A stretch of DNA of 64,000 nucleotides from Pelagomonas calceolata (taxonomy: Eukaryota > Sar > Pelagophyceae > Pelagomonadales > Pelagomonadaceae): contig CAKKNE010000006.1 in the NCBI GenBank assembly GCA_918797485.1, positions 3,534,001 to 3,598,000 of the forward strand, written 5' to 3'. Positions within the stretch are counted from its first letter, which is position 1, and every line of letters begins with the position of its first letter. This document shows positions 55,227 through 56,217 of this stretch, in pieces. The translations under genes were made by a program, and so were the position numbers. The notes beneath the pieces were generated by a model. That model had not been told where the DNA came from, searched no databases, and saw only the letters and a list, made by a program, of their open reading frames with translations.

Positions 55227-56217
55227 CTAGCAGCGCACGCGCTCGAGGCCCGGCTCGATGTAGTAGTAGACGTTGCCCTGCTCGGCCCACTCGCGCAGGC
55301 AGATCGCGCCCTTGTCGTCGAAGTCCTCATTAATAAAAACCTCGCAGTCCTTGACCTTGGTCAGCAAAAACTTGCAGGCCGTCGGCGCCGTCGCCATGAA
55401 GGCCTTGATCTCGTCCTGCGGCACGCCGGCTTCCTTCTTGGCCTTGCGCATGGCCTGGTAGTAACTCTTGAGGTAGGTCTTCAAGGCCGTGGCCGACATC
55501 TCGTACTCCTGGAGGTGGAACGTGTGCTCGATGGCGTCGACTATTTTCACGTTGTCGTCGAGCTCCTCGCCGCCGCCCTCCGCGGAGGCGTTGCCGCCCG
55601 TGTTGATCTCCTCGCCGCCTTCCGTCATGTTGCGGGACTGGACCTTGATGATGCCCGGGGCTTCTTCCACGGGCTCGGCCTTGAAGGCGTCGCTGCACAT
55701 CTCCTTGCCACTCACTTTGCAGGTGAGGATCTCGAGGCCGCCCCGCAATCTCAAGACGAGGTGGAGCGTGGACTCCTTCTGGATGTTGTAGTCGCTCAAC
55801 GTGCGGCCATCTTCCAGCTGCTTGCCCGCGAAGATCAGGCGCTGCTGGTCGGGCGGGATGCCCTCCTTGTCCTGGATTTTTTGTTTCACGTTGTCGATCG
55901 TGTCCGACGGCTCGACGTCCAGCGTGATGGTCTTGCCCGTCAGCGTCTTGACGAAGATCTGCGCGCGCGCGGGCGTTTTCGCGCGGCGACGGCGTGGGGG
56001 GCTTTTTTGCCGAAAGGTTGCTCTCTCGCGTCGCACGGCGGCCGTAGGGACGCGCGGCGACGGCGTCAGGGCCCTATCTCTCCGCATCGCTGCTCTCTCG
56101 CGCCACAGCAGCCGTATCGCCTATCAGCTAGACAGCGCTTGTTTGCCGGCAGTGGTGCGTATCGCAGCGCGTGCAACGAACGATGGTTGGCTGGAGGAGT
56201 TTAGAGCTCACCTGCAT
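55227..56217 (-). CDS. Ubiquitin-TCTP fusion protein
   Basis: Exon 1 (56217-56212) encodes only Met-Gln; exon 2 (55958-55227) the rest, 245 residues in all. Residues 1-76 are a near-perfect ubiquitin: [19 protein letters not shown] through HLVLRLRGG, with all seven lysines. Without a stop or new Met this runs into a complete translationally controlled tumour protein (about 169 residues): [32 protein letters not shown], the paired TCTP helices ([16 protein letters not shown]) and the end [18 protein letters not shown]'s initiating Met is replaced by Leu (CTC) directly after Gly76. Known natural ubiquitin fusions carry ribosomal proteins eL40 or eS31. Deubiquitinases would be expected to release ubiquitin and a Leu-starting TCTP. 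Confidence 0.9.
55959..56211 (-). other. Intron after codon 2 of ubiquitin
   Basis: 253 nt, ATGCAG then GTGAGCTC, ending GCGCGCAG before ATCTTCGTC. It contains two CGCGGCGACGGCGT units 60 bp apart (about 55983 and 56043), each followed by a TCTCTCGCGYC-like phrase, an internal duplication of the intron core. Confidence 0.85.

Follow-up and report, generated by a model that had tools for sequence, protein, structure and literature searches.

The locus analysed here raises the question of whether Pelagomonas calceolata makes its TCTP as the second half of a ubiquitin fusion and, if so, what the ubiquitin is for. The whole stretch of DNA that was analysed, called the window, comprises 64,000 nucleotides of contig CAKKNE010000006.1.

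Structure of the ubiquitin-TCTP gene

The gene is located on the minus strand at positions 56217-55227 of the window, exactly where the original prediction had placed it, and is composed of two exons. Exon 1 (56212-56217) consists of ATGCAG and codes for Met1 and Gln2 of ubiquitin. It is followed by a GT-AG intron of 253 nt (55959-56211; GTGAGC...GCGCAG), inserted in phase 0 between ubiquitin codons 2 and 3. Exon 2 (55227-55958) is an uninterrupted frame that contains the rest of ubiquitin, TCTP, and the stop codon. Ubiquitin residues 3-76 (55737-55958; Pfam PF00240, E 3.7e-32) end with RLRGG, the Gly76 codon finishing at 55737, and the residue that follows in the same frame is not proline but Leu, encoded by CTC (55734-55736), which is position 1 of TCTP and P1' of the expected cleavage site. 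The TCTP part (55227-55736; Pfam PF00838, E 1.3e-30, and matches to PDB TCTPs) has 169 residues, coding down to 55230, plus a TAG stop codon at 55229-55227. Since PF00838 is spanned from position 4 to position 156 of 164, the TCTP domain is nearly full. Both the sequence and Pfam, which places the two domains in one frame, confirm an in-frame fusion in which Leu stands for the Met1 of TCTP. The idea that ubiquitin 1-76 lies in one continuous frame is correct after splicing, the product being a chain of 245 residues with a complete N-terminal ubiquitin ending in RLRGG, whereas the genomic frame itself begins at ubiquitin residue 3 and residues 1-2 come from the mini-exon.

An ATGCAG start with an intron at the same place is present in seven of the ten ubiquitin loci of the genome whose upstream sequence was printed (six GT donors and one GC), the intron being absent from this place in the other three. 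At the locus in which ubiquitin precedes a partner beginning with VRVHLSW, ATGCAG followed by GT or GC was not found within 3.4 kb upstream. The database proteins P0003 and P0004, representatives of clusters with 11 and 56 members, begin with MQIFVK... and lack the intron, as would be expected of spliced transcripts. A repeated element as the source of the intron is ruled out, because the 248 nt searched (of 253) have a single match in the genome, which is the intron itself.

The ubiquitin of this gene is canonical. Its residues 3-76 are identical to those of 14 of the 16 other ubiquitin units of the genome that were compared, and therefore it differs from a leader of the FUBI type, in which the domain is decayed and the GG is kept. 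At the DNA level it is 81-92% identical to these 16 units, which indicates that it is not a recent copy of any of them.

The neighbouring genes, all of them on the minus strand of the window, code for a CCCH zinc-finger protein (51409-53511), a Methyltransf_16 protein (53590-55008), and a patatin-like phospholipase with a cyclic-nucleotide-binding domain (56468-60094).

Register and copy number of TCTP

In the window, TCTP has no Met at position 1 from which translation could start; its earliest Met is residue 13. Leu1 occupies the place of Met1, in a gap-free register, when the protein is compared with five unfused TCTPs of other ochrophytes; free TCTPs starting with Met are those of Triparma, Tetraparma, Epithemia, Paraphysomonas, and Ascophyllum. 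TCTPs of known structure show the same register, residue 8 of the query being aligned to residue 8 of the chain in 6j2y, 6ize, and 2hr9. In the model of the window protein (mean pLDDT 85.5), this Leu (residue 76 when numbered from Gln2) is situated directly before the first TCTP strand (77-81).

A search for the TCTP family through the whole genome (32,445,274 bases in 8 contigs, read exon by exon, so that a gene split into small exons could escape) gave one match, namely the fused gene. A separate intact TCTP gene, which the original prediction had named as evidence that would count against it, was not among the results of this search, and a second TCTP gene is discarded, except for a gene in small exons, which could be missed. 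Over TCTP, the window protein shares 99% identity with the UniRef protein P0002, also from P. calceolata.

Other ubiquitin genes in P. calceolata

The search for ubiquitin in the genome, in which an intron-split ubiquitin could be missed, gave 56 matches, 17 of them with E values up to 2.8e-31 and distributed in 13 loci. Intact ubiquitin precedes ten different partners in this genome, TCTP being one of them. One locus codes for a polyubiquitin of four units. At C4:246343-246786 two ubiquitins are followed by a thioredoxin (by Pfam) that begins with Val. Pfam also identifies eS30, present behind ubiquitin in two near-identical copies (C1:44793 and C5:44750), NiSOD, which appears in the genome as two pieces of one locus, and SKP1 (C2:803184), the only SKP1 match in the genome. 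The existence of two eS30 copies fits the published P. calceolata assembly, in which contigs 1 and 5 have nearly identical ends (passages of PMC9481584). An eS31 partner was named by eye, and the partners beginning with VRVHLSW, CPGGE, and MEDDEE have no Pfam family above the cut-off. At C6:892631 ubiquitin is followed by AEDEGG; this locus lacks the usual intron and, beyond an apparent intron, continues in a frame with the look of a membrane protein. A divergent ubiquitin ending in RAG is part of a 2023-aa frame at C4:1216724.

The only genome match for eL40 (C5:2352632) reads ...KMVYDPSLAALAK... with Met in front, and ubiquitin was not found in the 1.6 kb searched upstream of it. According to passages of PMC6721733, eL40 is a practically invariable partner of ubiquitin in eukaryotes.

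The genome contains 1968 copies (978 forward and 990 reverse) of a motif composed of GCTAGCG, 2-6 bases, and AAGACACTAG, and 0 copies of its backward-read control; one copy of the motif is upstream of the ubiquitin-SKP1 gene. Part of this motif, GACACTAG, appears 10 times in the window (at 55023-55030 and nine other places) versus 0.87 expected. The motif has the appearance of either a repeat or an element of promoters.

The number of ubiquitin genes bears on one explanation of the fusion, that it is kept mainly for supplying ubiquitin alongside an abundant growth-linked protein, as has been said of ubiquitin-ribosomal protein genes. Canonical or near-canonical ubiquitin is present in 22 of the 27 fusion proteins described below, and TCTP is, like the ribosomal proteins, a TOP gene (passages of PMC7407922), two facts that this explanation would accommodate. 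However, P. calceolata possesses twelve other ubiquitin loci (E up to 2.8e-31), including the four-unit polyubiquitin, and in five relatives the fusion persists with an N-terminal domain hardly able to function as ubiquitin. Ubiquitin supply is thus considered an unlikely reason for the fusion.

Distribution of the junction

The original prediction had proposed looking for the junction in other stramenopile genomes and transcriptomes; here it was found in database proteins. Two protein searches, one with the TCTP part (25 proteins, 16 with the junction) and the other with a profile (63 proteins, 11 further junctions), pooled to 65 distinct proteins, 27 of which carry GG-Leu. Among the remaining 38, some are fragments or models that begin within TCTP, others are models that have an unrelated N-terminus, and others are TCTPs without the fusion. 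When GG followed by any residue was counted over all 173 database proteins fetched, the same 27 junctions were obtained and Leu was the next residue in every one of them, within LEI (18 proteins), LTV (six), or LTI (three). In a third protein search the best 120 of 275 matches lacked the own-query rows P0029, P0032, P0033, P0035, and P0036; its coverage is therefore incomplete and further fusions may exist.

Carriers with a species or strain name are P. calceolata (P0002), Pelagophyceae sp. CCMP2097 (P0018, on a 362-kb contig), and Aureoumbra lagunensis (P0019, a transcript of MMETSP0890; taxid 44058, Pelagophyceae). P0005, another MMETSP transcript, has two ubiquitins ahead of TCTP. The 22 proteins with canonical or nearly canonical ubiquitin include four in which this domain is partly covered (P0006, P0009, P0013, and P0014) and P0002, in which it contains an insert. 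The first 50 residues of P0002 match a stretch upstream of another ubiquitin locus (C1:6000043) and are joined to ubiquitin-TCTP, so P0002 is probably a chimeric transcript.

This case suggests that transcript assemblies can be chimeric at ubiquitin, and the fusion itself could be suspected of being an artefact of assembly or annotation, or a dead gene. However, the same junction is present on a second genome contig, in a transcript from another genus, and in metagenome proteins, and the frame is open and conserved. An artefact or a local accident is rejected by the 27 junction proteins and can hardly be credited any longer.

The invariance of Leu invites another interpretation. Leu would be a type-2 N-degron residue and, if the protein is cut, all 27 junctions would expose this bulky hydrophobic residue as the new N-terminus, where it could act as a working N-degron, so that TCTP, as a growth regulator, would be short-lived or destroyed under certain conditions. 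The genome also contains a 2249-aa ORF with a UBR box (66.9 bits), PRT6_C (91.5 bits), and a ClpS-like stretch. However, the ClpS-like match is weak, reaching 25.6 bits (above the cut-off) in one search and 19.8 bits (below it) in the other, and the conservation of Leu does not need a degron, since Leu1 replaces Met1 without a gap just before the first TCTP strand. A working degron therefore appears rather improbable. The more elaborate proposal that the only TCTP of the lineage is an obligatory ubiquitin fusion with the invariant Leu as degron, the TCTP level being set by cleavage and the N-degron pathway and the ubiquitin of the side branch having become a dedicated cleavable leader, is regarded as quite improbable.

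Origin of the fusion

A tree was constructed with 59 TCTPs, 23 of them fused and 36 labelled as unfused. All 23 fused sequences are placed on one side of a branch with 100/100 support, together with two N-truncated models labelled as unfused: P0015 from Chrysophaeum taylorii, whose sequence begins at TCTP residue 13, and P0016, beginning at residue 5. The fused/unfused label requires three changes on this tree, which may mean that the fusion was gained once and lost twice, or that it was gained once and two of the models are truncated. The second possibility is favoured, because residue 1 offers no start codon to a gene caller that depends on one. With midpoint rooting, the nearest unfused group is that of bolidophytes and diatoms (98/88), and a long stem (1.06 changes per column) leads to the fused clade.

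The grouping of the fused TCTPs in one clade (100/100) fits a single origin. As far as these organisms have been sampled, the tree and the single TCTP match in the P. calceolata genome suggest that the fusion most likely arose once, in an ancestor of pelagophytes and some relatives, and would have replaced the free TCTP gene.

Decay of the ubiquitin domain in relatives

In five relatives (P0025, P0029, P0032, P0034, and P0036) the N-terminal domain keeps only 29-40 of the 76 ubiquitin residues. Just 1-2 of the seven lysines are left and Ile44 is changed in all five; by contrast, both Gly residues and the following Leu are maintained in all of them and Arg74 in four, P0029 having neither Arg72 nor Arg74. 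Pfam still recognizes ubiquitin above the cut-off in four of the five, P0034 being below it (18.5 of 25.4 bits).

For P0036, an AlphaFold2 model with a mean pLDDT of 78.6 has matches in the PDB to TCTPs (best E 5.0e-11) and to ubiquitin (4wzp_G; E 1.9e-7, with a TM-score of 0.92 by target), according to which the N-terminal domain of P0036 may still have a ubiquitin-like fold; as the alignment used for this model contained real ubiquitins, it is no independent proof of the fold. Residues 91-94 of the model (LRGG) have pLDDT values under 50.

P0033, with 74 of the 76 ubiquitin residues, nests among the five decayed sequences, and hence either the decay was repeated or P0033 re-acquired ubiquitin; a tree in which the five decayed sequences are held together as one clade is not rejected (p-AU 0.108). 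In some relatives the decay could reflect the loss of cleavage.

The decayed domains could be folded adaptors, and this would suit a protein that works uncut, as a TCTP with a permanent ubiquitin domain. However, RLRGG|L is intact in the window, GG|L is present in all 27 junction proteins, even where the ubiquitin surface has gone, and LRGG forms a low-confidence linker in the P0036 model. An uncut protein is consequently judged very improbable.

Proposed processing and function of the N-terminal domain

The interpretation that we consider probable is that the gene codes for a ubiquitin-TCTP precursor that is cut after Gly76, whose N-terminal domain serves mainly as a cleavable leader, and which had a single origin with replacement of the free TCTP gene. 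Once the Met-Gln mini-exon is spliced, as the gene structure predicts for P. calceolata, the ribosome would make one chain of 245 residues. Deubiquitinases process linear ubiquitin fusions, and the genome encodes members of these families (four matches to Peptidase_C12 and 23 to UCH/USP, some of which are pieces of one gene or copies in duplicated contig ends); for these two reasons, cutting is likely. Given the intact RLRGG|L site, a deubiquitinase would cut after Gly76 and release ubiquitin and a TCTP in which Leu takes the position of Met1. That TCTP and ubiquitin would be made in a 1:1 ratio, as the original prediction proposed, is likewise plausible. The N-terminal domain would then be a leader that helps TCTP to be produced and folded and couples it to expression of the ubiquitin type, the supply of ubiquitin being presumably a by-product in P. 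calceolata.

A leader role is favoured by the five relatives in which the domain no longer looks like ubiquitin while the cleavage site and Leu persist. It has precedents in passages of PMC6721733, which describe a cis-chaperone role for the ubiquitin fused to yeast eL40 and eS31, as well as the decay of the ubiquitin fused to Caenorhabditis eS31. However, the same source reports that fused ubiquitin gives eS31 no specific protection from aggregation in yeast without Ssb, which counts against this role. With respect to expression, TCTP and ribosomal proteins belong to the TOP class of mRNAs (passages of PMC7407922), so that an expression class shared with ubiquitin-ribosomal protein genes would fit.

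Comparison with known ubiquitin fusions

The ubiquitin-TCTP gene resembles the ubiquitin-eS31 and ubiquitin-eL40 precursors in having a single N-terminal ubiquitin, with an abundant growth-linked partner right after GG. It differs from them in that the partner is TCTP, and the eL40 of P. calceolata has no ubiquitin in the stretch read. Passages of Sibbald et al. 2019 (PMC6332867) describe algal fusions of ubiquitin with NiSOD, actin, ribosomal P1, IMP, HMG box, and RING proteins. These are similar in that ubiquitin precedes an unrelated partner, and ubiquitin-NiSOD is also present in the P. calceolata genome; however, the ubiquitin-TCTP proteins form one clade, and no complete TCTP lacking ubiquitin was encountered within it. 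The main text of PMC6332867 nowhere contains the words TCTP, tumor, tumour, or SKP1. In animals, the ubiquitin-like FUBI fused to eS30 (FAU) is cleaved off (PMC8354635 and PMC10611586). FUBI-eS30 and Caenorhabditis ubiquitin-eS31 share with the proteins studied here the decay of a fused ubiquitin to a ubiquitin-like domain, but here ubiquitin is joined to TCTP, and a single clade contains both the canonical and the decayed domain.

The statement of the original prediction that no ubiquitin-TCTP fusion is known to have been described agrees with the literature searches: no paper was found by the exact phrase, and none among the matches listed in broader searches, which mostly covered literature outside subscription. 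Ubiquitin fusions are known as a kind, and TCTP is a new partner as far as the literature was searched.

Biological significance

A conserved growth protein that is not ribosomal joins the short list of ubiquitin partners. The N-truncated TCTP models and a chimeric transcript suggest that annotation loses such fusions, and ubiquitin-TCTP might serve as a character that marks pelagophytes and their relatives. The presence of canonical and decayed ubiquitin in front of the same partner, within one clade and with the cleavage site kept, provides a natural test of why ubiquitin gets fused to other proteins. In addition, a TCTP without its own start Met makes the TCTP N-terminus, and its part in the stability of the protein, directly testable.
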